Origin: a virus
Direction: 5' to 3' (one strand)
IMG/VR virus record: IMGVR_UViG_3300007542_000035
Span: 1-48,802 of that record
DNA length: 48,802 nt
The notes under the pieces: model-generated
The model's input: only the letters and a program-made list of their open reading frames with translations
Database searches by the model: none
What the model was told of the DNA's origin: nothing
Shown: positions 4,368 to 42,020 of the stretch, in pieces
Layout: every line of letters starts with the position of its first letter
Position numbering within the stretch: the stretch's first letter is position 1
Translations under genes and position numbers: made by a program

Positions 4368-7300
4368 CTACTCTCCACGTAAGAATCGTGCTGCTCTGGT
4401 TGTTTGTTGTTGCAGTGATATTCCGTTACTTGGAGTAATAGTAGTACTGTCATCGTCTAACCCTTGCTCGTACCAAACTTCGTCGTATGGTGTTTGCAGC
4501 AATTGTCCTCTGCTGAAGTCAATAACTTTTGTAGACACGTTGTATTCTCTAACAATTGCAGTACCAGCAGTACCTCTACGTAGTCCGCTCACTGAGTTAG
4601 TTTCTAGATTGCGTTCTCTATATGTAATTCGTTCTCCGTTGATACTTATAATACCAAATCTTGCCGAATCTAAGTCTGGCTCACCTAACTTACTAACATC
4701 ATTGACATAGATAACGTCGTCTGTCCATTTTAAAGGTTGTGTTAGATAAGTTGTGTTATCATCGGTGATTCTGTATACTGCGGTATTGTCACGCATATCC
4801 TTGAAGATTCTAAATCCTAATGCATCCGGAACAACGCTATCTGTAATCATAGTAACAGCAAGTTCGTCATTACTAGTTAGTGTACTTCTAGATACTGCTA
4901 ATGTTAACCCATCGTCGCTCAGACTATAATCAGTACCTGGCAATAATCTAGTACCATTTAATGTTACCCATAATCTTTCGGTGCTAAACAATGCTCGGTC
5001 TAATTCAAATAAGTTAACTCTAACATCGGCTCCTGTTGACTTATCCCAAAGATCCATATCAAACCCATATGCATCAAACAGTTCTCTTGACGGCTCAAAT
5101 ACTACTGTAGGTCCTTGGAAAACTTGCGTTGAAATATCAAGTTCTCTTGAATCATTCCAACTTGTAACTGTAATAATATCTCCATCATCTAAGTTCAACC
5201 CATACCCTTCGGTAATCGTAAGAACTCCGTTGCTATCTACAGTATATCCAGCACCCCAACTTCCGGCAGCACTAGTGATGTAAATATCAACAACGTCCGA
5301 CGCAGTTGGGCTTTCATCATTTAAGAATGTAATTGATCTCGTCGTCGAATCGTCGTTTGGATCAACTTGATAATCAACATTTAATGTCAAACGTTCATTA
5401 TTTAAGAATACAGAAATTTCATCCTCGGCGACTAGATCCACGTCAATACCAATTTCGTCTCCGTATGGTAAAAATACCTGAGCTGGCGTGTGTCCACCAC
5501 CAAATACCGGTCTTTTAGTAATGCTTGGACCAGTTTGATAATGACCAGTTGGTGGGCGCAATCGTTTACCATTAACTTCAACAATTAAGTTTTCTCTATT
5601 TTTGTTATTTAAATTAAGTTGATCAATGACATAAGTTGGATCCCCGGCATTTGCTACAAATACTTGAGTTTCTGGGAATGAATATCTTAGATCCTGTTCT
5701 ATTGAATCTTCAGCAACATTGTCACCAAACACAGTAATTACAATAAAATGTGTATCGTTTAATTCTGTTGAATCGTCGTAATCGCCCATTACCAACATAA
5801 CAGTGGTCTCAGTTGAATCGTCGTTTAACGGACTCATTGTATAATTTGTAAACGTTTGTCCGTTAACCATTACAAGAACATCAACAATTTCATCGTATTG
5901 GATTGGAATTAACACGCTGCCTGAGATTTCATCCCCATACATTGTGTCTCTATAAATCTGATTGCCACCGCCGACGCCGTACACAAATACCTTAATGTAA
6001 TCGTTAACACCGGCCCCTGCATGAACACTAACTGATTTATTTTTCCAGTTAATTGTGTAATGGAATCCTTCAACTAATCTAACCCCACCGGTCATATTAT
6101 ACACAAATACAGTTGACGGGTGTTTTTGTAGATGTCCAAAATACATTTCCTGATCAGCACTAACATAATCAAATACTTGCGTTTTAACGGCAAATCCGTG
6201 ACCGTTATTACTGTAATCATATCCCGGACGTTGTGTTACTCGAATATCCAATGTGTCAAATACTCTACCCGGAATAAGTTCTTCCGGAGCGTGTGAGTTA
6301 TACACATCAACAAATTGACCACCTACAATGTCAGCATCTGGATCAATGTCAGTTGGCGGACCAATCACTACTGTTGGTGTGGTTAAGTACCCAAATCCTG
6401 GATCATCGATTAAAATTTCAATTACCCCGCCGCCAACTACTGTTGCTGCGGCTGTTGCCCTTCTAGTATTGCGATCGGGTGCTGCAATTGTAACTGTTGG
6501 GATTAAATCGTATCCTGTGCCAGGATTAGTAACTGTAATAGTAGCTACTCCGTCGTTATCAATAGTTGCGACCGCAGTTGCGCCTGAACCGTGCGTCATT
6601 ATACCAGTAGGTGCGCCAATGGTAATCGTTGGCGCAGTTGTATAATTTGCACCTGCATTAGTAACGGTAATACCTGTGACCCTTCCGTCACTAACGGTTG
6701 CAGTACCGGTTGCAATATCTCCAGTGATGCTTGAATCTTCAGCAATAGTTAACGCAGGTGCTGTTAAGTAGCCTGCACCTGCTGTGTCAATTGTTAAACT
6801 GGTTACAGCGTCTCCTGTTAAATTTGCCGTAAATGCAGCGGTAACAGGAGTAACATCTGGAGCTGATACAGTAACGTCAGGTGTATAAGAATACCCCCAC
6901 CCTGCATCTGTTAACGTAATAATGTCTACTGATCCATTGCTAACTGTAGCAGAAGCGGTTGCCTGTCTAGCAGCAGTTGGTGCAGAAAGAGATATTGTTG
7001 GTGTGATATCATAGTATGATCCACCGTTATCGACAGTAATACTAATCACTGATGTATTGTCAAGAACTGCCGTTGCCGAAGCACCTGTTCCGTGATTGAT
7101 TGTTGAATCTGGTGCACCTAACGAAACTGTCGGTGCGCTAGTGTAACCGGTGCCTGCTTCTGTTACTGTAATACTAACTACATATCCTTGTCCGGTATAC
7201 AACGGAGCAGTATCCCCTGAAATTGTTGCTGTTGCTGTAGCTTGCACGCCACCCGACAGATCAGGTGCACTAATTGTTACAGTCGGCGCACTTGTGTAAC

Positions 7301-10300
7301 CAGACCCTTGTGTTACCACTGTAATTGTTCCAATACCCCCTTCAGCGTCAAACGCGGCGTCGCCATCAAAACCATCGCCATCAAAACCAACTGTTGTTGT
7401 GTCAATAGTTGCAGTAGCAGTTGCTTGGATACCCAAAGTTGGTGCTGCTGGCGTAATAGTAACAGTCGGAGGTGTGTCGTACAAATAACCAACCTGGTCT
7501 ACGCTAATACTAGTAATTACGCCGCCACCTGAAACATTAGCACTAGCAGTTGCTTGCACCGCTGACTCATCAGGTGCCCCAATGGATAATGTAGGCGAAG
7601 AACTGTAATAATTTCCTCCTAAGATTCTAACCACATCTGTTAATTCATGATCTACAACAACTGCTCTTGCTGTTGAGTTAACACTTGCAGGTGGTGCTGT
7701 AACTGTTACTGCCGGCGATGCTGTATAAGAACTACCACCATTGATAATAGTTGTTCCCGACACAGCTCCGTTAGTAATAGTTGCAGTTGCGGTAGCACGT
7801 GCTACTGCTACGCTTGGAGGGTCGGAAAAAACAACAGACGGTACACTATCGTATCCACCACCGTTGGCGTTCATAGTAACACCAGTGACCGATCCACTAG
7901 TTAATAACGCCGACGCCGTTGCTTGAATTCCGGGTGTCGGTTCTTGTGCTGTTAACGTTACAGTTGGTGCCGACAGATAACCAAACCCATTGGTTACTAC
8001 TTCAACACCGGTGATAATATCACCGTCACCTAAAGCTCGAGCGGTAGCTGTAATATTATCCAATGGTGCAGAAATAGCAACAGCCGGCGGAACATCTGAG
8101 CTGTAACCTTTACCAACCTCAGTCATTGTTATTGATGTTACTTCTGTTGTGCTTCTATTAATATTAACCTGTCCAGTGGCTTGCACGGCATCGATACCAG
8201 ATAAATCTAACCCAGGGTACGAACCTGTAAACGAAGTAAAGATTTCGTTGTCTAAGATTGCTTCTGAATAGGTAGGTAACCCCTCTGGGCCGTATTCTAA
8301 ATTATCAAATACTGTCCTGTCAAAGCCGCCGGTACCAAATCCACTGTCTAAGATAAATTCAGGTCCTTTGAGTAATACTCCAGGATAATCAATACCATCA
8401 AATAATAGTGCAATATCTAGTCCAGGACTATTAACGTCAGCAACATAGAAACCCATAGTACGATCAATGCCACTTAATGTACTTGCTGGCACAATTCTAT
8501 AACGTTCTGGATCAAATGTATCTTCAGTTACTGAGCTACCATCTGAATATAAATCAATATAAACTCGATCATTATAACGAACTAACTGATCTGGAGGATA
8601 TACTTCGCCTGGCGCCCAATCAACGATCTGAGACTCATATTCATATCTATCGTATTTGATTCGAGTACTAATTGAACGTACACGGTCATTCTTGGTAACC
8701 GCTACAGCAATTGCACTTTCGGTATTTCCGCCATTAAACACTACAGTTGGTGTTGATCTATATCCCGAACCATGCTTAGTAATTTCAATTGACGATACTT
8801 CACCGTTTCCATTGATGTATGCTTGAATTTCTGTTGGGATTGCGGCGTCGCCACTGAGCGAAACTTGCGGTGCTACTGTATATCCAGCGCCACCGTTGAC
8901 TATAACTATTTCGTCAATGTCTAATAGATAATTATCAATCCATGTTTGATACGGCTGAGCATTCCAAATACTTTCAGTTGGTTCTCTGTTACTAACATCC
9001 GTTTCTAGAATAGCAATATCATCGTCTAAGATCGGACTTACAAACTGATAGTACGATGCATCATAAGCACTTGGCACATCAAAGTCAAATAAGTTACCTG
9101 CTACCGTATCGATTCCTTCATAACGTAACAAATATTCCTTAATTTTAACATGATATGGTTTTGATTCGTTTATATAATCCAACACTGATTGCTGATTATC
9201 TTTAAGATAAACAGAATATTGATCAAGTTCTCTAATCTTGTGATCTACATCGACTAGAGAAGTTTTAATTAGCCATTCAACATTTCCTTGTTCGGCTAAA
9301 ATATATTTAAATGTGCTTATTAACAGATTATTTCTTTCGTTAACAAAGTCGTTAATAAACAGCTCTTCGTTAATAGCTGTTAAGATTTGTCTAGTTTCTT
9401 CGGTTGGCCATTGATCAAAATACTGCACGTCAAATACTTCGACATCAAACCCGTAACGGCCGTCGATGTAACTATATAGGCTTGTACTAATCTGGATGGT
9501 ACCATCTTCAAGCCCTACTCTGATCCAGATGCCGTTGTTGTATTCATACAATTCCCACTTACCGTTGGAGTTAATTTTAACTTTACCAATTTCCCCATCA
9601 GATGCTACCACGGTTGCCAATTCGCTGTATGTGTTTTTCACATACTTTGGCATTGTTAATGCCGAGTAACCGGTTGAATACCAATCAATATAATTCCAAT
9701 AACGTTTAGTATCATATCCTTGTACACGGTACAAGTTTAATCCGTAGCTTGAATTAACTTCGTAAATGGACCAAAGATTGTTATTCTCCGAGTCGGTGGT
9801 AACTAAGTACCGATACCCAACCCCGTTAAGTACATGATTCTGATAGCCTAATTCTACATTATCAGCTACTTGGAAATCCCATAAACCACTGGTTGTACCT
9901 GGTATCGGTTCTTCGCTGTTAAGAATACTAAATTTTCTAAGCTCTGTGAACGGATGTTGTTGAAGAACCGCATTAGTTTCTGTGATATAATTTTTTAGAG
10001 CTGCAACACGATCTACAAAGAGACTCTGTCTTGGTCTAAAATCAACCCCGTAGCTATCAACAACACTTAGATTCGGATCAGGTACCTTATTACCTAACGT
10101 ATCAAGCCCTGCAAAACTATCAATTAGTTTACGGTATAAACCAGCTGATAGGAAATCAGCGGCCTTGCCTTCGCCTAATAGATCGTACTCAATGAAAATA
10201 TTATTATCAACAAACGTTTTGTTATATTCAACATGCAACACGCTACCAGAGTCAACTTTAACATGGTCATTGAAATTATACAAAGCTATTAGATTACTTC

Positions 10301-13300
10301 TAATCAATGCAGCGTATGGAATTCCCGAGCTTTGTGGGTTCTCAATGTAACTAGCAATCGCACTAGCACTCAATGTCTTGTTAGCACTGGTTATTACCGT
10401 TGTTAGATTTTTAACCCAGAAGTAATAATATGTAACAAAAGAACCATTCTGTGATTTTACCATTGACGAATAACGTGTACTGTCGACAACAGTACCTGAC
10501 CCTGCATATTGTGCTGGCGGTACTGCACTTTCGACCCATTGATAAATGTCTACTGAACTGCCGGGGAATAGCTGGCCCCAGTTTTTAGCACTATATAAAA
10601 TATCTGCCTGATTATAATCCACATAACGTAAATTTTCTGTATTCCACCAGATTTTACCGACCTGTTCTTTACCCCATAAGATTCCTGTTTTAGTATCGCC
10701 TAATTCATATACCGCAGGATCTACAGCGCCAATTACGTCAAGGTTTTGTTTAACTGCGCCAAGTAGCTTACCTTGAATTGGATCAATAAAATCTAAGTAC
10801 GTAGATACGCTTAACGTTTCTTTGTCGTAGATATAAACATTATTAACAAGCCTTGCGTCAACCACCGTGGTTTCTGTACGCTTTTCTTGCCAAGCAGTTC
10901 TTCTATCTGGATTATTAAATGTAACTAAATTGCCAATACCTTCGTGGTTTAGACTTGTAACAATTAACAAATTGTCAGTGTAGTTTAATGCATGTCCATA
11001 ACGGTCTAAATCATTAACTGCTGGCCATACTAATTCTTGCCCGTATACAAATTGTCCAGCTGTTAGATAACTTGCACTACCAAGAAGATCATATGTATAA
11101 ACTGCACCAGACCGTGTTACTACATGTTCAAATTCAGTTGTATCCGAATCAAACATTGTTGTATCATTATTGAATGTAACCGGCAATACAGCACTTGCAT
11201 CTTCTGCACCAATAATAAGATTAGTAGCAGAATAATCAACATGGACGCTGCTGCCAAAGTGACTATATGGTTCGTGTCGTGGATTATGAATAGTCTGTAC
11301 TGACCCAAATGGTGCTAGCCCAATATCAGTATACGCAGTTCCAATCCCGGGCATTACAGTCATACGACTCAACGCCGGTGCTTGATCAGTATTAATGATT
11401 GAGATTGTTAACTTATTATCACTAGCATTTGCCCGAATGTTTGGAATATTTTTATTGTTAATATCATTAACCATTCCTGTTAATGTAGTTGATGTAAATT
11501 GAACGTCAACATTATTAATTCGAATTGAATGTCCGACAGTTACTGCTGGATTTTCGGTATTTCCTGTAATTACGCCAAATACACGGCTAGTGTTCAAAAA
11601 TCTTGTTACTGATCCAGATTCTGGACTGTGCCAGTTATCGTTTGGAGCACCAACATAAATTGAACAATCTGTTCTACAAATTGATAGACTTGACCCAAAT
11701 GACGCAGATTTATTGTTGTTGTCGAGTACAACTTCTTGAATTAAGTTAAATTCGTTAATGTCAACTTCAACATGATCTCCTATAGTGAGATTAACATCAT
11801 TATCAAAAATTACCACATTGTTAATTAAATCTACAGAATAGTTGGCACCAATGGAATCCGTTGGATTCACAAATCTTGTATCATTAACTCTGATTGTATT
11901 ATTCTCGTCAATTGTACGTATAATATTGTAATTGCGACTCGAGCTATTTCTAACTACGTGTCTTTCTACTAGTCGTTCATAAATGTATGCAGCTCCGCTG
12001 TCATCTAAGCCGCCTGTTGCACGTGTTGGTGCACCGATAACAACTTGCTGCCCATCTGTAGTGGTTTCAATTACATGCCCAAAACTTTCATCTGCTAGTC
12101 CGGTAATAGTATCAACATATCTATAATATGTTGATGCTCTAAAGGTAATTTCTGCATCGGCAGCCGGCGCCGTAGCAAAATTAATTCCAACTGTGCTATC
12201 TGTATTATAGCTGTAATCATAATAAGGACGCTGTAGTACATTATCTACATATACACTGAACGCTTCGATGGTTTTAGCAGTATATAATTCAGTTGGCTCA
12301 GAAAAGAAAGTAGTTGATCCGTCGCCTGTTGCCGACACCGTATTTTTTCTAGTAACCTCTGTTACAATACCAGCAGCTGGAACATCATAAATTGTCAATA
12401 CATTGTCAATCAAGCTGAACTGACTGCTTGTTTGTATTACGCCGTCAACTTGTACAATAATTTGATCGGCTGTGTCAACTTTAATGTGTGATGTTAAATT
12501 ATAACTTGCGGTGTTATTATCACTAACAAATCTTGCAGATTGCTCTTGATATTCAACTTTTTCGTAAGCATGTACTTTTGCTTCGCCAATTGCGCCGACG
12601 TAGATCCAGTTTTCATCTTCACTAACATCAACTGCATGTCCATAACGTGCGTTTGGAATAGTATCAGCATCAGGTGCTACTAAAATCTGTCTTTGATCAA
12701 ATGTACCAGTTGATACATTTCTATATAAGACTAGTGCTGCACCTCTACTGCTGTGTGTACCAGGAGCTCCAGCAACAATATAATTTGTTGCCATTGACAA
12801 TGATTGTCCAAGTTCTTCTAGCAAATTGTTTGATACAATGGTGCTAAAATTGTAATAATCATTTTCTTTATTATAGCAGAACAAGCTACCAATCCCACTC
12901 TGATATGCAGGTGCGCCAACTACTGCGCCAGTACCTAATTTGCCTTGTGCAATAGAATGTCCAAATTCGACATTGCTTGCGGTGCCTGTTGGGCGTTGAC
13001 TGCGACTGATGCTAAACGGCGATACCTTTTCGTATACTTTCCAGTCGCCGTTAATATCATTATCAACCCAAACTCTGTCATTATTACCTAATCTAGTTAC
13101 GTATGACTGATTAGCTAAATCGCTCGGTTGTGCTAATCTAACAGATTCTAACCGAAACGCCGAGCCGTTACCTGTGATCGTTGTTTCCTCAGAATCCGCA
13201 ATGGCGCCACTAACAGTTATATTCTTTAGATCTACAATGTTACTAATTCTATGTGCACCGTCGACACGATCATCAAAAAACTTAATTACAACAACTTCGC

Positions 13301-16300
13301 CAACAGCTAAATCAGTTGTTCCACTAAATTCAATATTCAGCGTGCCGTCGAGATTATCAGTAACTTCGATAACGCGAATAACTTCTAAGTGATTTACGCG
13401 ATAAACATTCCAGTCGTATTTGTTAATACGTGCAATCCACACATACGAACCATTCTGAATAGCGTCTAGGTTATTATCAATCTCCGATAAGTCGTTGATT
13501 GTAAATAATGCTACGTCTACATCATCTAAATTAACATAACCAGCAGTTGGTAATGTTGTGTCGGTTATATCTTCAGCAAGAACTGGTAAGATATTTGGAT
13601 TAGTGTGTTTAATACTTTGCTTATAGATACTATTGATATCTATATTTTGGTTTGCATCGGTTTGGTTTGTTGATGTAATTCTAATGGTGCTAGGATTATA
13701 AACAAGTTTATTTTTATCTAGCTCTAATTCAATGTAGCGTTTATTATCTTTTGCGCCAAAAGTTGCACGTTTAATCGCCCAATTTTCGTATACTTCGTAT
13801 TCTGAACGTTCTTTATTAAACTGTACTCCGTTAAACAGCTCAACGCTCGTAGGTCTACCTTTTTCTTTAATTAAATTACTATAAACACTGACTTGACTAA
13901 TGTCATCAATGTTTAAACTTTCTAAATAACTTCTAGATCTAAATCCGGTGATTCCTAATCCTAATAAGTCAGCATCGGTTTCTAAGTTAGCAACTGAATT
14001 GTTATAATAGTTTCTAATTTGATCTGCTTTATTAGCGATGTTTGGAAGCATGCCAGTAGAAATCTGTCTGTAATCGATTTTAGTCCAATCGTCAAAATCA
14101 AATTCTTCAGTTGGCTGGATTTTTAAACTTGCTGCCCAATAACTATTTTTGTATTCAACCATATCTCCTTTGTTGTAACTGCGATTGGCATTCCATTGCG
14201 GCACAGGGTCCTGGTTAAGTAGAAATCCTGATGCTTCGAATAATCCAGTCCAGTTTGCGGTTACATAGCCGTTAAGTTTTAATCTTAATTGTCTTAAGCC
14301 AGTTGGCGGGTGGTATACTAAGTCATTGAAGATACTAACATTATCTAATACTAATAGATTTTCGTAACTGGTCGATCTTAGACGTAGATAACTAATTGCA
14401 TTATTGCCTAACGCAGTAATTTTAAAGTTATTATCAATTCGCGATACAGCATATTCTTTGCTAGTTAACGGTTGACGATTTTGATCCAGTGGCTGTTCAT
14501 TGATTGCTAGGTTTCTTAAGTCGTCGACTATTGTTCCGGCTTTTTCAAACTGCAAACTCGTAGCAGCCGGGTTTAAGTTAATTAAACTACCTTCAATCCA
14601 TCCCTGATTTGACCAATATAAAAATTCTGTTGCCATCTGGGTCCAATCTAATACGTAGTTGTTTTCAATGTCGTCAAAAATCAACCCTTGATATTCTAGC
14701 ATTTTTCCATAACTTACTAGAAAGTCAACTACACTTGATTTATTTGTAAAAGTATGTCCATATGGGATTCTAACAACACGGTCCGTAAATTCAGTTGGAA
14801 TTCGATAAGTGTTACCAGCCATTGAAATTTTATTATATTTTCCTGACGTTGAACTCTCAAGAACACGGAAATATGATTTAGTTTGCGAGTTACCGTAAAC
14901 TGCCCAGCCCCCGCTGGTTTTTTGAATCATTACACTAGAGTATTGTAGATCATTAAATGGCTGATTTTTATATGTCAATAATTGGTAACTTTCGTCAGGA
15001 ATCATTAAGCTAGTATTGGCGCTGTCTGGACTTGACTTATCTGTAAAGATTTTTAAATATTTTTTATCTGTAAATCCACCAATTCTATAGCATAGCTGCA
15101 CATCAATACTAGAAAGACTTGTTGCTAACTCTGTTGCTGAAATTCCTGAATTTCTATTACGTTCAATGATCCAGTTAAGATAACTATTCTTTGGAGTAGT
15201 TGATGATAATAATTCTGTGTCGCGAACATCTATTCTATATCTTCCATCATAAACATACTGACCGACAGAGTCATTGAATTTAAATCTATCTCTATCAATC
15301 ATCAATGCAAAATATTCTGCAGGTTTTGTTAAGGCCAAAATCTTTTGTACAGCAAATGGCCAATTACTAGATCTGCGCCATGCATTTTCCGCAGGACCTG
15401 CATCACCAATTACCCAGCTCTTTTTAAAATCAGTCTGATTGTAGTTAGCTACCATGCATTGCATAGGACTTAACAAATTCCCTTCGGAATCAACCGGAAT
15501 GACTTTAGTTAAACCCGGACGAGCATAACGGCTGTCGTATCGTTCATTGTTTGGTTCAGCAATATATCCAGCTTCTAAGTGTTCCCACATTACCAAGTTG
15601 CCCGAGGTATATGGTGCAGGGCCATAAACATCTATCCACCACGTTGGATATTCATTAAGTCCTAGCATTTCCCATGGATGAAGATGCGGATGATCTGTAT
15701 CGTAATAATAACGATAGATTCCTCGCCAATTACCCTTTAAAAGACTTCCATCTAACTTGCTTGATGCTGTGCTGTAATTCCAAGTGAATTCATTATCAGC
15801 TAGATATGTTTGTGATTTATAATCAATTCTATGCCAGCCGGCCCAGTCTAAAAACTCAGCTGCTACAAGTTCGGTAATTTCACTATCTAGATAATCTGTA
15901 GTTCTAAACTGGCCAGGACTAACATCTTCGTAAAGAAGAGGAATTGTGCCATTTACTTTAATATTATTAAAAATTCTTTTTTCAAATTCTAGTAGAATTT
16001 CGTCACGAATGTCATTGAATGCAACAGTGAGTGAACCATCATGACCTTGAATTACATTTCGCGGTGAAACATAACTCTCATCTGTCCAGATCTCAGGTTT
16101 GAACTTTGGAAATAATCCAAGTTTTGTTGGGGTTTCAGGTACATAATTGCCGTACGCTCCAGATGCAAACTCACGAATACGTAGTTTTTGTCCGCTTGTA
16201 GGTGTAATTAAAAGTGTGATTCGCGGCCCGTCGGTTGCAACAGTATAATCATGATCTTTGATTAACAAATTATCATCTAAATAGACCAACAAGCCTTTCT

Positions 16301-19300
16301 TGTTTGCTTGCGTAAAATCATACACGTCAACTGTATTAAAGACATTAGTACTAATTGATGTAATTGTATATTCTGTTTCTTGGTAGTTATTACCAAACAA
16401 TAATGCGTCACTCCAATAAAACGCAGTATCTTCATTTTTTCCTTGGTTGATATCAACAATCGCTTCGTCTAAAATTTCTGGTATTGTTTTACCATAGGTA
16501 TCGTGATTGATTGCCCAATCAAGAAGTTGATATTTAAACTTTTCAAATTGTCTTGCTGCGAACCCAACGGCGTCGAAGAAGTTCGCATATTCGTTTCTGA
16601 GAATAAAACCAGTTGCCGACAATGGTGCTGAATTTTGTACAATAACATCGCCGTACTCCTCAATATTGCCAAGGTCTCTGGTATTATTGGAACCATTGAT
16701 ATCTCCAGAAAAATCAGTCAAGTTTTCTACTAACTGGTTATAGTGATTTCTAATGGTTCCTAGACTAAATGTGTCAATACTTGAGTTGAATGCATTTCTT
16801 TCAAGATTACTTGGAATTTCATAATGAGCAACACGACTGCGTTGATCGCTAATTATTTTAACTTGTATAATACTATCGATTGCAGGAGCTGTATTAAATG
16901 TTATAGTAGTGGCTGTATCTGTAGATGTAATTGTATAATTAGACGGCTGCAAGAAATTATTTTCTAAATAAACCTTTACCGCAGGCATATTTGTTTCCGT
17001 ACGAGGTGCAATATCAAGTTTCAAAGGTTTATTTGCGTACTTAAATGTAAACACCTGGCGTTGTCTTGTTACGTCAACTGAACTTGTCCAGCCAATGGTA
17101 TCTGTGTATTCTGTTCTAGAACTATATTTTCTAGTAAATCCAGATTTAATTTTTATTGTTGCACTACTTGTCCCAGACACATAAACAAATTCGTCTGCAA
17201 TTCGATTATTTTCAAATACAATATCGCCAATGTTGTCAATATTTAAATATGTTAGACTGAACCCTAAAACAGGATCAACTGGGCCTGTGCCTATTTTATA
17301 TGAAAACAACTTAGACCCTGTAAAGTTTGAACTTTTATATATACTTAGATCGCTAAAACTATTACCATTACTGTCATATACGTCAAACAACGGTGGCTGA
17401 TTTGCGGACTCGCGCGACTGCGTCAATGACCAGGTTGATCCGTTGTACACGTATTGATTACCTTCTTGTGTGTACCCATTTAAACAAAGTACAACCTGAT
17501 CTAATAGAACCGATGCGTCTTCGGCAGGAATTAAATTAATAATTGTTCCGTATTCAGTTGAATCGTCGTCTGGGTCAACAGTTTGAACTCTATAGATTTT
17601 ATTTCTCACAGATGCGTCAGTGTCGGCTGCAAAAACAACACGGGAGCCATTGGTAAGAACATGGCCATCAATCGAATACCCTACTTCAGCGCCGTGAACG
17701 TTCGACAGCGCATCGTTTTGCGAAAAATCAATGACATCAATTGGTGACGTCGCAACAGTACCAAAATTTGCCAAACGAAGGCCAGCATCAAATTCAATGA
17801 TCGGGCGTTTGCCTCTATAATCATTATTAAACGTTGCTACTGATTCGTTATATTCAGCAGTTTTTTCAATCACACTCTTGTGGAACCAACGATTAGATCT
17901 AGTCCATGGGTTTAAGTCTAAACTTGAGCGTTTAATTGTAAGATAATCAACATCAGTTGAATCAGTTGAAGTAACATGTAACTCGCTAACTTTGATCAAC
18001 TGTATTGAACTTCCGACTCCTTCGACATAGTATTCATTTTCGCTATACGCAGATGGTAATGTGCTTCCTCTGAATTTTATTTTTAATCCATTGGTAAACT
18101 CTACACCATTTGGACTAGTATAAAATGCTTTGCCAATGATATCATTTTCAACATCTAATGTCTGTTGAGATTCTGAATCAACAATCTTAATGATACCAAC
18201 TAAATTACTATTAGAACCATCCTGATAATATAATGTGTCATTAGCTGCGGTTAAAATTGGCATTTGAAGTACAATGCCAGACTGGTTAACATAAAAAGTT
18301 ACATTACCATTGGTATTGCCGTACTGTGCTGTAAATTGTGTTTCGTTATCAAGCTCATCTATACCAACTAAACTAATAGTTGCGTCTGTGTCTGTACTAC
18401 CGTCTGGGCGGTTAATATTAACACGATAAATTATTTTTTCTTGACCTGTTACAGGATTTAATAAAACAACTGTTTTATCTTCGATATCTTTGACGCCGTC
18501 GATGCCGCCAAAAGTTTCAAAATCTTGTCCGTCGATACTGCTAAAAATATCTGAGGTAACAAAATCAACACCAGTTTTTACTTCAAGTTCGTGAAAATAT
18601 GCCTGAGCGTCCGCCGACGGTACATTAAATCTAATAGACCCAGTTTCTTCGCCATTATTTGTTACACCAAGGACGCTTCTACTGGTAATATTTCCAGCAT
18701 ATGGTGTAGTGCCGCTAGTTCCGGGGTAAGATTGAATCCAGAAACCAGAGTCTTGATCAACGTTGAACGTGTAGTTTCCACCTCGGACCAACGTTAACGT
18801 TGGGTTATTGCCGCCGATACCGCTAAATGTGTAATACGACGATCCTTTAGTAACTGTATAGTCATCTGTAATAGCAATTGCACTAGCTTGCACATCAACT
18901 GCATCCGGACCATCAGGTAACCAATAATATTGCCCATAGTTAATAAACTTGTCAAAATCAATACTTGGATCCCAGCTATATTGTTGGCTAGCAAAAAGAC
19001 GATCATGTCTTGTTACATCAGCGCCTTCGACACGCAACGCATCAAGGATGCCTGGATATGTAATAGCGTCTGCAACTTTATTGTCACTGTCTTTAAAAAC
19101 CACGCCTGGTTCAAGTTGATAATTTGTGCGGATATTTGATTTTTCAAGTAGATAGCTATCCGCATAACTTACCCCAGCGCCAAAGCGTCTTCCGATATAT
19201 CCTTGAACACGCTTTAAGTCTGGGTTTTGTACTAATTGATCCAAAGTAGCAGATAAAAACTGCTTGTTTGCATTAGTTTTGAAAATTTCAGGTAATAGGT

Positions 19301-19322
19301 CAACTGTGCGGTTACGTGCCAT
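4368..19322 (-). CDS. Giant multi-domain virion protein, 4984 aa, probably baseplate/tail-fibre complex
   Basis: One uninterrupted frame of 14.9 kb starting MARNRTVDLLPEIFKTNANK, 5 bases after the gp6 stop. Visible parts in order: an N-terminal region (1-160) that is probably the virion anchor; a cupredoxin-like block LTLVRGGNYTFNVDQDSGFW near 175; several copies of a 'VDGVxxxPxxDYT...ITFxxAP' module like those in T7-type fibres (for example NNFLQPSNYTIT, DNVLQRPYYDYS, NNERLTLNVDYQV, NGTRLLPGTDYSL); a carbohydrate-binding-like block WNANRSYNKGDMVEYKNSYW near 1710; a seven-copy FG-GAP propeller near 2110-2810; 16 GxGYxxxPxV repeats near 3470-4330; and a C-terminal domain ending TTRAARFLRGE. 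No T4 gp7, gp8 or gp10 is recognisable in the window; this protein sits in the gp7 position next to gp6, so it may replace them (inference). Frame is intact with no frameshift. Confidence 0.85.
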   Translation of the reverse strand: MARNRTVDLLPEIFKTNANKQFLSATLDQLVQNPDLKRVQGYIGRRFGAGVSYADSYLLEKSNIRTNYQLEPGVVFKDSDNKVADAITYPGILDALRVEGADVTRHDRLFASQQYSWDPSIDFDKFINYGQYYWLPDGPDAVDVQASAIAITDDYTVTKGSSYYTFSGIGGNNPTLTLVRGGNYTFNVDQDSGFWIQSYPGTSGTTPYAGNITSRSVLGVTNNGEETGSIRFNVPSADAQAYFHELEVKTGVDFVTSDIFSSIDGQDFETFGGIDGVKDIEDKTVVLLNPVTGQEKIIYRVNINRPDGSTDTDATISLVGIDELDNETQFTAQYGNTNGNVTFYVNQSGIVLQMPILTAANDTLYYQDGSNSNLVGIIKIVDSESQQTLDVENDIIGKAFYTSPNGVEFTNGLKIKFRGSTLPSAYSENEYYVEGVGSSIQLIKVSELHVTSTDSTDVDYLTIKRSSLDLNPWTRSNRWFHKSVIEKTAEYNESVATFNNDYRGKRPIIEFDAGLRLANFGTVATSPIDVIDFSQNDALSNVHGAEVGYSIDGHVLTNGSRVVFAADTDASVRNKIYRVQTVDPDDDSTEYGTIINLIPAEDASVLLDQVVLCLNGYTQEGNQYVYNGSTWSLTQSRESANQPPLFDVYDSNGNSFSDLSIYKSSNFTGSKLFSYKIGTGPVDPVLGFSLTYLNIDNIGDIVFENNRIADEFVYVSGTSSATIKIKSGFTRKYSSRTEYTDTIGWTSSVDVTRQRQVFTFKYANKPLKLDIAPRTETNMPAVKVYLENNFLQPSNYTITSTDTATTITFNTAPAIDSIIQVKIISDQRSRVAHYEIPSNLERNAFNSSIDTFSLGTIRNHYNQLVENLTDFSGDINGSNNTRDLGNIEEYGDVIVQNSAPLSATGFILRNEYANFFDAVGFAARQFEKFKYQLLDWAINHDTYGKTIPEILDEAIVDINQGKNEDTAFYWSDALLFGNNYQETEYTITSISTNVFNTVDVYDFTQANKKGLLVYLDDNLLIKDHDYTVATDGPRITLLITPTSGQKLRIREFASGAYGNYVPETPTKLGLFPKFKPEIWTDESYVSPRNVIQGHDGSLTVAFNDIRDEILLEFEKRIFNNIKVNGTIPLLYEDVSPGQFRTTDYLDSEITELVAAEFLDWAGWHRIDYKSQTYLADNEFTWNYSTASSKLDGSLLKGNWRGIYRYYYDTDHPHLHPWEMLGLNEYPTWWIDVYGPAPYTSGNLVMWEHLEAGYIAEPNNERYDSRYARPGLTKVIPVDSEGNLLSPMQCMVANYNQTDFKKSWVIGDAGPAENAWRRSSNWPFAVQKILALTKPAEYFALMIDRDRFKFNDSVGQYVYDGRYRIDVRDTELLSSTTPKNSYLNWIIERNRNSGISATELATSLSSIDVQLCYRIGGFTDKKYLKIFTDKSSPDSANTSLMIPDESYQLLTYKNQPFNDLQYSSVMIQKTSGGWAVYGNSQTKSYFRVLESSTSGKYNKISMAGNTYRIPTEFTDRVVRIPYGHTFTNKSSVVDFLVSYGKMLEYQGLIFDDIENNYVLDWTQMATEFLYWSNQGWIEGSLINLNPAATSLQFEKAGTIVDDLRNLAINEQPLDQNRQPLTSKEYAVSRIDNNFKITALGNNAISYLRLRSTSYENLLVLDNVSIFNDLVYHPPTGLRQLRLKLNGYVTANWTGLFEASGFLLNQDPVPQWNANRSYNKGDMVEYKNSYWAASLKIQPTEEFDFDDWTKIDYRQISTGMLPNIANKADQIRNYYNNSVANLETDADLLGLGITGFRSRSYLESLNIDDISQVSVYSNLIKEKGRPTSVELFNGVQFNKERSEYEVYENWAIKRATFGAKDNKRYIELELDKNKLVYNPSTIRITSTNQTDANQNIDINSIYKQSIKHTNPNILPVLAEDITDTTLPTAGYVNLDDVDVALFTINDLSEIDNNLDAIQNGSYVWIARINKYDWNVYRVNHLEVIRVIEVTDNLDGTLNIEFSGTTDLAVGEVVVIKFFDDRVDGAHRISNIVDLKNITVSGAIADSEETTITGNGSAFRLESVRLAQPSDLANQSYVTRLGNNDRVWVDNDINGDWKVYEKVSPFSISRSQRPTGTASNVEFGHSIAQGKLGTGAVVGAPAYQSGIGSLFCYNKENDYYNFSTIVSNNLLEELGQSLSMATNYIVAGAPGTHSSRGAALVLYRNVSTGTFDQRQILVAPDADTIPNARYGHAVDVSEDENWIYVGAIGEAKVHAYEKVEYQEQSARFVSDNNTASYNLTSHIKVDTADQIIVQVDGVIQTSSQFSLIDNVLTIYDVPAAGIVTEVTRKNTVSATGDGSTTFFSEPTELYTAKTIEAFSVYVDNVLQRPYYDYSYNTDSTVGINFATAPAADAEITFRASTYYRYVDTITGLADESFGHVIETTTDGQQVVIGAPTRATGGLDDSGAAYIYERLVERHVVRNSSSRNYNIIRTIDENNTIRVNDTRFVNPTDSIGANYSVDLINNVVIFDNDVNLTIGDHVEVDINEFNLIQEVVLDNNNKSASFGSSLSICRTDCSIYVGAPNDNWHSPESGSVTRFLNTSRVFGVITGNTENPAVTVGHSIRINNVDVQFTSTTLTGMVNDINNKNIPNIRANASDNKLTISIINTDQAPALSRMTVMPGIGTAYTDIGLAPFGSVQTIHNPRHEPYSHFGSSVHVDYSATNLIIGAEDASAVLPVTFNNDTTMFDSDTTEFEHVVTRSGAVYTYDLLGSASYLTAGQFVYGQELVWPAVNDLDRYGHALNYTDNLLIVTSLNHEGIGNLVTFNNPDRRTAWQEKRTETTVVDARLVNNVYIYDKETLSVSTYLDFIDPIQGKLLGAVKQNLDVIGAVDPAVYELGDTKTGILWGKEQVGKIWWNTENLRYVDYNQADILYSAKNWGQLFPGSSVDIYQWVESAVPPAQYAGSGTVVDSTRYSSMVKSQNGSFVTYYYFWVKNLTTVITSANKTLSASAIASYIENPQSSGIPYAALIRSNLIALYNFNDHVKVDSGSVLHVEYNKTFVDNNIFIEYDLLGEGKAADFLSAGLYRKLIDSFAGLDTLGNKVPDPNLSVVDSYGVDFRPRQSLFVDRVAALKNYITETNAVLQQHPFTELRKFSILNSEEPIPGTTSGLWDFQVADNVELGYQNHVLNGVGYRYLVTTDSENNNLWSIYEVNSSYGLNLYRVQGYDTKRYWNYIDWYSTGYSALTMPKYVKNTYSELATVVASDGEIGKVKINSNGKWELYEYNNGIWIRVGLEDGTIQISTSLYSYIDGRYGFDVEVFDVQYFDQWPTEETRQILTAINEELFINDFVNERNNLLISTFKYILAEQGNVEWLIKTSLVDVDHKIRELDQYSVYLKDNQQSVLDYINESKPYHVKIKEYLLRYEGIDTVAGNLFDFDVPSAYDASYYQFVSPILDDDIAILETDVSNREPTESIWNAQPYQTWIDNYLLDIDEIVIVNGGAGYTVAPQVSLSGDAAIPTEIQAYINGNGEVSSIEITKHGSGYRSTPTVVFNGGNTESAIAVAVTKNDRVRSISTRIKYDRYEYESQIVDWAPGEVYPPDQLVRYNDRVYIDLYSDGSSVTEDTFDPERYRIVPASTLSGIDRTMGFYVADVNSPGLDIALLFDGIDYPGVLLKGPEFILDSGFGTGGFDRTVFDNLEYGPEGLPTYSEAILDNEIFTSFTGSYPGLDLSGIDAVQATGQVNINRSTTEVTSITMTEVGKGYSSDVPPAVAISAPLDNITATARALGDGDIITGVEVVTNGFGYLSAPTVTLTAQEPTPGIQATASALLTSGSVTGVTMNANGGGYDSVPSVVFSDPPSVAVARATATATITNGAVSGTTIINGGSSYTASPAVTVTAPPASVNSTARAVVVDHELTDVVRILGGNYYSSSPTLSIGAPDESAVQATASANVSGGGVITSISVDQVGYLYDTPPTVTITPAAPTLGIQATATATIDTTTVGFDGDGFDGDAAFDAEGGIGTITVVTQGSGYTSAPTVTISAPDLSGGVQATATATISGDTAPLYTGQGYVVSITVTEAGTGYTSAPTVSLGAPDSTINHGTGASATAVLDNTSVISITVDNGGSYYDITPTISLSAPTAARQATASATVSNGSVDIITLTDAGWGYSYTPDVTVSAPDVTPVTAAFTANLTGDAVTSLTIDTAGAGYLTAPALTIAEDSSITGDIATGTATVSDGRVTGITVTNAGANYTTAPTITIGAPTGIMTHGSGATAVATIDNDGVATITVTNPGTGYDLIPTVTIAAPDRNTRRATAAATVVGGGVIEILIDDPGFGYLTTPTVVIGPPTDIDPDADIVGGQFVDVYNSHAPEELIPGRVFDTLDIRVTQRPGYDYSNNGHGFAVKTQVFDYVSADQEMYFGHLQKHPSTVFVYNMTGGVRLVEGFHYTINWKNKSVSVHAGAGVNDYIKVFVYGVGGGNQIYRDTMYGDEISGSVLIPIQYDEIVDVLVMVNGQTFTNYTMSPLNDDSTETTVMLVMGDYDDSTELNDTHFIVITVFGDNVAEDSIEQDLRYSFPETQVFVANAGDPTYVIDQLNLNNKNRENLIVEVNGKRLRPPTGHYQTGPSITKRPVFGGGHTPAQVFLPYGDEIGIDVDLVAEDEISVFLNNERLTLNVDYQVDPNDDSTTRSITFLNDESPTASDVVDIYITSAAGSWGAGYTVDSNGVLTITEGYGLNLDDGDIITVTSWNDSRELDISTQVFQGPTVVFEPSRELFDAYGFDMDLWDKSTGADVRVNLFELDRALFSTERLWVTLNGTRLLPGTDYSLSDDGLTLAVSRSTLTSNDELAVTMITDSVVPDALGFRIFKDMRDNTAVYRITDDNTTYLTQPLKWTDDVIYVNDVSKLGEPDLDSARFGIISINGERITYRERNLETNSVSGLRRGTAGTAIVREYNVSTKVIDFSRGQLLQTPYDEVWYEQGLDDDSTTITPSNGISLQQQTTRAARFLRGE
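6340..8920 (-). repeat. Tandem GxGYxxxPxVxI protein repeats, 16 copies
   Basis: Inside the giant gene, about 50-60-residue units share the pattern: Gly-x-Gly-Tyr-x-x-x-Pro-x-Val-x-Ile, a short linker with AP, then ATATATVxxGxVxxITVxxxG. I count two copies upstream (GAGYTVAPQVSL and GSGYRSTPTVVF), a non-repeat spacer with a binding-module look (VDWAPGEVYPPDQLVRYNDR), then 14 nearly contiguous copies such as GFGYLSAPTVTLT, GSGYTSAPTVTIS, GTGYTSAPTVSLG and GFGYLTTPTVVIG. Copies differ enough at DNA level that this is an old protein repeat rather than recent duplication. Likely a long beta-rich stalk. Confidence 0.85.
10890..12990 (-). other. FG-GAP beta-propeller region inside the giant protein (seven blades)
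   Basis: Seven copies of the (Y/F)G-H/S-(A/S)-...-IVGAP-...-G-x-(A/V)-x-x-(Y/F) pattern of FG-GAP/integrin-alpha repeats follow each other: EFGHSIAQGKLGTGAVVGAP, LGQSLSMATNYIVAGAPGTH, RYGHAVDVSEDENWIYVGAI, SFGHVIETTTDGQQVVIGAP, SFGSSLSICRTDCSIYVGAP, HFGSSVHVDYSATNLIIGAE and RYGHALNYTDNLLIVTSLNH. Insertions between blades carry fibre-type modules. Seven is the blade number of the integrin-alpha propeller. Confidence 0.8.
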
Positions 19323-40592: not shown

Positions 40593-41147
40593 TTGTTATT
40601 ACAAGGTATAAGTAAGCACGTGCCAAATCCACAGAAAGCAAAAGGAAGTAATTGGGAACGAATTGTTGCTAACCAGCTTTCTAAAATTTATAACGAAACA
40701 TTTATTCGTGTCCCGGGTTCTGGTGCGTATGTGGGCGGTACAAATAACGCTCGCAAAGAATTCTTACATGAAGGTGTTATTAGAGTGTTAAAGGGAGATA
40801 TTGTTCCCCCTCCTAGTTTCTCTAAGTTTAACGCTGAATGCAAGAGCTACAAAGATTTTCCGTGGCATCAACTATACACAGGTGACTGCAAAGTTCTTGA
40901 CGGTTGGATAACTCAGTGCTTGGATGCAGCGGACGACGGCGATGTGAACTTATTGTTCATGAAGTTCAACCGTAAAGGCACTTATTTAGGTATACAACAC
41001 AGGCATAAGGCAAACTTTAAAATAGAAAATTACAGTCAATATAGTCCAGCTAATCTAGATTTAGAAGGACCTTGGATTGTAACAGATTTAGAAAATTTTT
41101 TAGGCATAAGGCATAATCAAGAAAAACTTAAAGAAATTTGTTTATAA
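40593..41147 (+). CDS. PD-(D/E)xK nuclease, Holliday-junction-resolvase-like
   Basis: The frame from TTG at 40593 gives 184 aa; a GTG at 40620 (HVPNP...) is an alternative and neither has a good ribosome binding site. Motifs of a small PD-(D/E)xK nuclease are visible: KGSNWERIVANQLSKIY with E22, PGSGAYVGGTNNARKEF, then LKGDIVPPPSFSKFNAECKS with D69, E82 and K84. This layout is that of archaeal-type resolvases and related phage nucleases that act on branched DNA. In T4 the resolvase is gp49, a different fold, so this may be its replacement (inference). It closes the gp55-gp47-gp46 operon and is followed directly by the structured noncoding region. Confidence 0.75.
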   Translation: MLLQGISKHVPNPQKAKGSNWERIVANQLSKIYNETFIRVPGSGAYVGGTNNARKEFLHEGVIRVLKGDIVPPPSFSKFNAECKSYKDFPWHQLYTGDCKVLDGWITQCLDAADDGDVNLLFMKFNRKGTYLGIQHRHKANFKIENYSQYSPANLDLEGPWIVTDLENFLGIRHNQEKLKEICL

Positions 41148-41955
41148 ACTTTGATCGCGATTGATAAACCCGCTTTCAAAGTACATCGCTGATAAGGTCT
41201 AGCTAGGGACAGTAGAATACTAGCGGTAACACTCTCTGATGTGTGGAGGACACCTAATTTGCGAGCAGCGACGCAGACTGTAATCACTATCCTTAACAGG
41301 ACGACGATACGATATGCCTGTGAACTTTACTAATGCACTTTTGTAGTTCACTAACGTATTTGATTACTTTATGGCAAGAAAAAAGGCTAAAAGATGCGGC
41401 TCTGTTAATCAAAATTGCACCCGCAGGTTTGCTTACATTGGTGATTAGGTGTAAGCGAGCTCCCGTTGGATATAAGGCTAGAGTAGGGGGTACAGGCCAA
41501 CCGCCTCCGTGTATAGTTTGCTTTACATTTTACTGTAAATCAACAAAATGTAAAGTATTTTCTACAATCTCTTTTAATCACTGACTGGTAACACTCGTCG
41601 AAAGTGTTTCTTTAATCTTTGCCCGCTCTGGGCAAAGTATGACCAGACGATCTGTCGAAAGCAATTCCCCAAACAAAGTTTCTTTCATAGCTAACAATAA
41701 ATTGTTTTTAAAATATTTAGATTTCAAAAAAATAATTTGAGCGTAAGCGAAAAATTAGATGTGCATCGCACATCTCTAAAGATAACCAATTACTTCTAAT
41801 CATTTAAGGATAATTCGCGGAAAAAATTAATGGTAGATTTTTAGATACAACAACGATCGCTTAGAATCATTACTGCTGACTCTGCTATTAGGAAATTTTT
41901 ACGGGATACATAAAAGGCTAGCCCCCAACAGTTAAGGCAGACTTGTTAGGGGCTA
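41148..41955 (+). ncRNA. Candidate large structured noncoding RNA, about 800 nt
   Basis: About 840 bases with no convincing gene but many perfect stems: 41148-41154 with 41176-41182 (plus an inner GCG/CGC), 41320-41326 with 41345-41351, 41431-41437 with 41450-41456, 41521-41531 with 41545-41555 (11 pairs), 41590-41595 with 41603-41608, 41617-41624 with 41630-41637, and 41757-41764 with 41768-41775. CTGGT (41585-41589) pairs with ACCAG (41642-41646) and encloses two of these as a three-way junction. At 41733-41757 an AT stem carries a GA/GA loop and a GTAA tetraloop, which favours the plus strand. A final stem joins 41919-41930 to 41944-41955, just before the terminator. GTCGAAAG occurs twice (41597, 41654). 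Size and context recall giant phage RNAs such as GOLLD or ROOL; identity not tested. Confidence 0.6.
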
Positions 41956-41956
41956 T

Positions 41957-41985
41957 ATAGTGTCCACATTGTGGACTATTTTTTT
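41957..41985 (+). terminator. Rho-independent terminator after the structured RNA
   Basis: GTCCAC (41962-41967), loop ATT and GTGGAC (41971-41976), extended by an outer ATA/TAT with a two-base bulge, followed by seven T (41979-41985). It ends plus-strand transcription before the converging gene at 42016. Confidence 0.85.
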
Positions 41986-42012
41986 AAGGCACGTTACATT
42001 GCGTAACGAACT

Positions 42013-42020
42013 TATTTATA
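42013..42020 (-). promoter_or_regulatory. TATAAATA late box pointing into the structured RNA from the opposite strand
   Basis: An exact minus-strand TATAAATA that includes the TAA stop of the 109-aa gene. Downstream on that strand there is no gene for more than 800 bases, only the complement of the structured region. It may be chance, or it may drive an antisense late RNA. Confidence 0.35.

Follow-up and report, generated by a model that had tools for sequence, protein, structure and literature searches.

Comparative evidence for a large structured RNA with a matched twin motif in jumbo phages and integrase-linked bacterial elements

Introduction

Phages and prophages encode several large noncoding RNAs. 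The best described are ROOL and GOLLD, which are 600–800 nt long, contain many pseudoknots and have as their distinguishing trait the assembly into an RNA-only homo-oligomeric cage. Contact between like strands is also known from the OLE RNA, where symmetric A–A pairs form in the dimer (PMC12286853). Much less is on record for the Rfam motif RF01718. It appeared in a list of 2010 (PMC2864571), with Burkholderiales and fresh water as its sources and a probable cis-regulatory role; the main text of that article gives no phage or integrase context, and the list was the only literature on RF01718 found in a search which had most subscription journals and all preprints outside its range.

Here we analyze a window of 48,802 nucleotides, that is, the entire 48.8-kb uncultured virus record IMGVR_UViG_3300007542_000035, which we regard as a piece of a jumbo phage genome. 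A sequence-only reading of this window had proposed that its one large gap encodes a structured noncoding RNA of phage, possibly of a new class, and had been reminded of GOLLD and ROOL.

Materials and Methods

Viral contigs were scanned for homologues with three queries: the nuclease, the DUF6614 protein encoded next to it, and the invariant core GRGGTACMGSNYRACCGCCTC. As neither the window nor two freshwater homologues had a blastn match among named phages, named relatives were reached through synteny. The covariance-model search was limited to about 190 positions, and for RF01718 the gathering cut-off is 37 bits. Covariation was evaluated with a G-test statistic against a null in which the columns were re-evolved on the tree, using our own script in the manner of R-scape (not R-scape itself); the alignment contained 138 sequences and the type A subset 84. 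The search for the longest complement in homologues was trusted for P10 only.

Results

The gap and its surroundings

No credible gene lies between the end of the nuclease gene at 41147 and the start of a convergent gene at 42016, and this interval (41148–42015) is the one interior gap longer than 150 bases that the main reading frames leave, as the earlier reading had remarked. Its other landmarks were found again: the stems (including 41617–41624/41630–41637), a GTAA loop (41743–41746), a repeated sequence (GTCGAAAG at 41597–41604 and 41654–41661) and a terminator at the end, formed by the second of two hairpins (Table 1). The stem thought to close a three-way junction (CTGGT/ACCAG, 41585–41589/41642–41646) holds within the clade of the window and did not emerge as a covarying helix of the family as a whole. 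Between the conserved core and the terminator region (41919–41985) lies a poorly conserved spacer (41781–41918). For the window RNA no clear promoter was located, which counts against the reading favoured below. ARAGORN detected neither tRNA nor tmRNA in the window, in keeping with the reported lack of a tRNA cluster nearby.

The gene neighbourhood is T4-like with a gp46-like SbcC, radical-SAM proteins, the PDDEXK resolvase and baseplate and portal genes. The best named relatives of gp46 are the jumbo phages PA5oct, Phosso, Atu_ph07, BF and GAP32. On the minus strand, a single frame stays open for 4984 codons (positions 4368–19322 of the window), an exceptional size for a phage protein.

Table 1. 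Features of the RNA locus in the window; E values are from the covariation analysis unless stated otherwise
Feature	Position	Strand	Evidence or remark
PDDEXK nuclease (probable Holliday junction resolvase)	40593–41147	+	upstream of the RNA, outside it
Whole element including terminators	about 41176–41985	+	
Structured RNA core	41176–41780	+	61–80% identity per block to closest relatives L004/L005; >100 distinct homologues
5′ domain, matches RF01718	41197–41328	+	Rfam 38.5 bits, cut-off 37
P1 TCGCTG/CAGCGA	41186–41191/41266–41271	+	family E at most 0.05; window pairing read from the sequence
P2 hairpin	41202–41206/41220–41224 (in 41197–41224)	+	E=0.45
P2 pseudoknot	41197–41200/41207–41210	+	E=0
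P3 hairpin TGCG/CGCA	41260–41275	+	E=0.05
P4 long-range helix TAATCA/TGATTA	41281–41286/41361–41366	+	E=0
P5 ATACG/CGTAT, closes stem–loop within P4	41307–41359	+	E=0
P7 TGCGG/CCGCA	41395–41425	+	E=0
P8 long hairpin	41427–41460; core GCTTACA 41431–41437/TGTAAGC 41450–41456	+	E=0
P9 pseudoknot, P8 loop GTGATTA/TAATCAC	41441–41447/41575–41581	+	E=0
P10 pseudoknot GTTGG/CCAAC	41465–41469/41497–41501	+	E=0
P14′ segment TAAGG	41473–41477	+	columns 269–360 and 269–375 both E=0; 0.55 in type A subset
P11 AGAG/CTCT	41480–41483/41569–41572	+	E=0
P12 GGGGG/CCTCC, enclosed by P11	41486–41490/41504–41508	+	
Twin motif copy 1, ACTC-GTCGAAAG	41593–41604	+	identity-type covariation with copy 2, E=0
P14 hairpin CTTTGCCC/GGGCAAAG, between twin motifs	41617–41637	+	E=0
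Twin motif copy 2, ATCT-GTCGAAAG	41650–41661	+	identity-type covariation with copy 1, E=0
P16 hairpin, TGAGCG..AGCGAA type	41733–41757	+	E=0
P17 final hairpin AGATGTGC/GCACATCT	41757–41775	+	E=0; strongest Watson–Crick covariation in the family
Two terminator hairpins	41919–41955 and 41962–41976 with T-run	+	L004/L005 have GC-rich terminators in the corresponding position

The interval encodes an RNA and no protein

Folded as a single sequence, the gap gains only modestly over shuffled sequences (z = −2.0, 20 shuffles). This counts against a structured RNA, and the case for structure therefore rests on comparison. In the alignment of 138 sequences, 29 column pairs exceed every value of the phylogeny-aware null alignments, and when the 84 type A sequences are taken alone, at least one supported pair is present in each of 15 helices, among them the pseudoknots P2, P1/P3, P9 and P10. 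RNAalifold recovered few pairs from the gappy alignments. An open reading frame of 83 amino acids (41333–41584) does not survive in the two closest relatives, L004 and L005, where stops and indels of 1, 2 and 34 nt interrupt it, so that the interval is not coding. Covariation is thus present and a conserved frame is not; on both points that the earlier reading had named as refuting, the outcome favours it, and the comparison confirms the proposal that positions 41176–41780 encode a structured noncoding RNA.

The predicted fold contains several pseudoknots. P1 is pseudoknotted with P3, and the topology of P9, read by eye, is the same in the enterobacterial and bacterial homologues. P10, which adjoins the invariant GGTAC and ACCGCC, is found in phage and bacterial homologues alike. 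The P14′ segment is a copy of the 3′ strand of P14; it can pair with the 5′ strand (41617–41621) and then excludes P14. As this alternative pairing is supported by covariation in the family as a whole, it suggests a conformational switch or a base triple. Two architectures exist for the 5′ domain; one is that of RF01718, and the other goes unrecognized by Rfam.

Relation to RF01718 and to the known large RNAs

RF01718 (Polynucleobacter-1) is the single Rfam match in the whole window (41197–41328, 38.5 bits, E = 6e-5), and eight relatives reach 79–115 bits. By score the RNA belongs to this family. The model does not cover the whole RNA: the first 132 nt align across all 141 model positions, which end at 41328, whereas the conserved structure runs on to 41780, and also past the model in the bacterial loci. 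RF01718 is thus the 5′ part, without the 3′ core, the P2 pseudoknot and the twin motif. Neither GOLLD nor ROOL matched the window at gathering score or up to E = 5, so the RNA is not one of these; Rfam and ARAGORN gave no group I or II intron, tmRNA or RNase P either.

The idea of a new class stands in part. The first 132 nt match RF01718 just above the threshold and the RNA is therefore not wholly new. It nevertheless comes close to being so, because it is several times as long as RF01718, is spread over jumbo phages and mobile elements, and is nowhere described as a unit in the literature covered (again excluding most subscription journals and all preprints), where we also found none of these gaps described as RNA. 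We group it with the large phage RNAs and treat it as a known orphan motif in a much longer version.

Homologues in freshwater and cultured jumbo phages

All 120 pattern matches that were fetched also fitted the RNA profile, and 141 distinct copies were kept; more than 100 distinct homologues come from freshwater T4-like jumbo phages. The locus is fixed behind the gp46/nuclease (resolvase) genes and before a convergent baseplate operon, mostly with one copy per contig. One freshwater jumbo contig (G008:C1) matches at 165964–166077 and at 275898–276096, the first in two pieces and the second more weakly.

At the place that corresponds to the window locus, between the EndoVII and the baseplate hub gene, four cultured jumbo phages have an unannotated gap of 790–840 nt. 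These gaps are mutually homologous and dispersed with four to five per genome, and lie in gene-free gaps where the annotation was read. The covariance model R1, built from freshwater phages only, finds its best matches in the orthologous core of the enterobacterial copies (best E 0.007 in 46.6 kb). The full RNA is unannotated in 121Q, BF, GAP32, CBB, Munch and XaC1; XbC2, Kaldavass and Hallingskeid also have copies, and RaK2 has three weaker places. In 121Q the copies are found at 90, 193, 247 and 327 kb and in BF at 30, 93, 175, 259 and 335 kb. Five copies at similar positions, about 50–90 kb apart, were observed across several genera, in Munch, Kaldavass, BF, GAP32, XbC2, CBB and Hallingskeid.

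An extended −10 element (TGnTATAAT) precedes 14 of 19 copies at the expected place; the XaC1 copies mostly have no exact motif. The TGAAAC −35 of these copies is that of the second promoter class of CBB and GAP32, which occurs near DNA-synthesis genes (PMC5259590). No match came from PA5oct, Phosso, Atu_ph07 or SCTP-2, which means that the RNA is either missing from some related jumbo phages or too divergent there for the model. PA5oct has a gene-free gap of 660 nt near the corresponding locus (NC_071039.1, 76517–77179; 3470–4132 of our stretch L369) with no detectable similarity to the RNA.

Bacterial copies

RF01718 was detected in 13 of 121 sampled genomes of one Burkholderiales genus (1.6–2.8 Mb), once below the cut-off. 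We take the genus to be Polynucleobacter because RF01718 is named from it. In these chromosomal copies too the RNA extends in the 3′ direction, into the core, the twin motif and the final hairpins known from the window. Among GTDB genomes, an RF01718-type pattern found nothing; a core pattern had 83 matches, and only three of these, including a weak one, fitted the profile.

In all 18 bacterial loci the RNA is preceded by a DUF6641 gene of opposite orientation. Short stretches were fetched around these loci, and 13 of the 18 show a tyrosine integrase behind the RNA, all but L543, L549, L550, L560 and L563. The three together also occur in one gammaproteobacterial metagenome-assembled genome. 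Examples of the arrangement are L546 (8184–10196) and L547 (6733–9340), and it recurs in other bacterial loci (L541–L563, L544). Of the two islands examined, one carries Zorya ZorC/ZorD and the other PDC-M33A with a methyltransferase; judged from these two, the trio seems to be what a family of defence islands is built around.

A twin motif that matches within each RNA

On either side of P14 the family has the forms ACTC-N7/8 and ATCT-N7/8. The variable 7-mers are identical to each other in 122 of 136 freshwater RNAs, where shuffling expects 13.8 and never exceeds 27, and in 13 of 16 bacterial RNAs. For the corresponding 6-mers of the enterobacterial copies the count is 42 of 44 (22.3 expected, maximum 33). 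The motif itself is highly variable (AGATAAT, GGATGAT, GCATAAT, AACAAAA, GTCGAAA, CGTCAA). In the family alignment its columns have no covarying partner besides each other, and its complement does not occur within the RNA beyond chance. A third strand complementary to both copies was considered and rejected, there being neither such a strand in the RNA nor a third column. Gene conversion is an unlikely source of the identity because the adjoining ACTC and ATCT remain different.

The paralogues of one genome are informative. In Munch and Hallingskeid the twin motifs differ between copies and match within each RNA, except for one copy in each phage which is one base off (TGTCAG/TGTCAA). The two copies of one bacterial genome have AGAGAAA (L552) and AGCGAAA (L561), again matched within each RNA. 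All copies of BF and GAP32 carry CGTCAG and all copies of 121Q and XaC1 carry CGTCAA; a trans partner common to all copies is set back by the differing paralogues of Munch and Hallingskeid. That paralogues differ and yet match themselves argues for a coupling within one RNA species and not for one shared external partner. As far as comparison can tell, a motif matched this precisely shows that the RNA has a conserved job.

Discussion

The comparison shows a conserved predicted fold with several pseudoknots and no conserved frame. It also shows that the RNA is common to freshwater, enterobacterial and Xanthomonas jumbo phages and to integrase-linked elements in what is probably Polynucleobacter. 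We suggest that a single RNA, some 600 nt long, is encoded in the gap and would act as RNA and not as message, in the form of a stable particle with matching twin surfaces; we hold the chances for and against this to be about even. In the cultured phages the RNA would be made as its own transcript in the middle phase of infection. It could then fold compactly and, like ROOL and GOLLD, work as a stable RNA or ribonucleoprotein particle. The twin motifs would be two surfaces that are required to match inside one RNA species, and these might be in mutual contact, whether in a single molecule or across molecules of the same RNA, or might hold one ligand side by side.

The likeness to ROOL and GOLLD, including the formation of a multimer or particle, is drawn by analogy from size, phage and prophage context and the many pseudoknots. 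In sequence and covariance model the RNAs are unrelated, and the RNA described here differs in the lack of a tRNA cluster in the window, in the twin motif and in the four to five copies per genome of some phages.

The main rival explanation, which appears rather unlikely to us, is a transcript of a replication origin: an RNA from a middle promoter would fold, hybridize to its template as an R-loop and serve as the replication primer, and the dispersed copies would be several origins. T4 oriF and ColE1 RNA II are precedents for a structured origin transcript. As in T4, there would be a possible middle-phase transcript at several sites beside recombination genes, and as in ColE1 a structured pre-primer. 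Four to five conserved copies at fairly even positions in a 350-kb genome, with a middle-class promoter and one copy always adjoining recombination genes, would fit such a role. Yet the GC skew follows the coding strand without a further break at the copies, their shared orientation is largely that of most genes and so is no signal of its own, and the freshwater jumbo contigs mostly have one copy. Priming, moreover, needs neither elaborate pseudoknots nor a twin motif.

Two identical sites without a partner in the RNA could also mean that the RNA acts in trans and captures a host or phage protein, or another RNA, as CsrB captures CsrA, and the matching might then reflect two binding sites for one protein. 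Since a single shared partner does not lead one to expect different twin motifs on the paralogues of one genome, nor so variable a motif, we regard a capturing RNA as fairly improbable. Very unlikely, finally, is a role in cis, either for the replication operon, as its untranslated region or terminator, or for the next gene, as its leader: the window RNA does follow the nuclease gene directly and in the same orientation and ends in terminators, and the 2010 listing of RF01718 points the same way (PMC2864571), but in the cultured phages the RNA follows different genes at four to five places, mostly with its own promoter, in BF, 121Q and GAP32 it stands behind an EndoVII gene of opposite strand, and the gene downstream is often convergent.

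Returning to the particle with matching twin surfaces, a more far-reaching version is conceivable, which we consider a long shot. The RNAs would form a widespread class of large RNAs of giant phages and of bacterial integrative elements carrying defence genes, in which the unpaired motifs make homotypic, parallel like-with-like contacts, so that each species assembles only with itself. The OLE RNA dimer is a precedent for contact between like strands; it has no sequence relation to the present RNA, and there the same loop of two chains touches, not two motifs in one RNA. If this version were true, several self-sorting RNA particles would be present in one infected cell.

In summary, an orphan Rfam motif of 141 nt becomes a full RNA about four times longer, and this common RNA links giant phages with mobile defence elements. 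The letter-for-letter match of two unpaired motifs without a complement is an unusual covariation signal and suggests an arrangement, a contact or a shared ligand, which is directly testable. The RNA is now placed in jumbo phages of E. coli, Serratia and Salmonella that can be handled in the laboratory, which makes its deletion and probing feasible.
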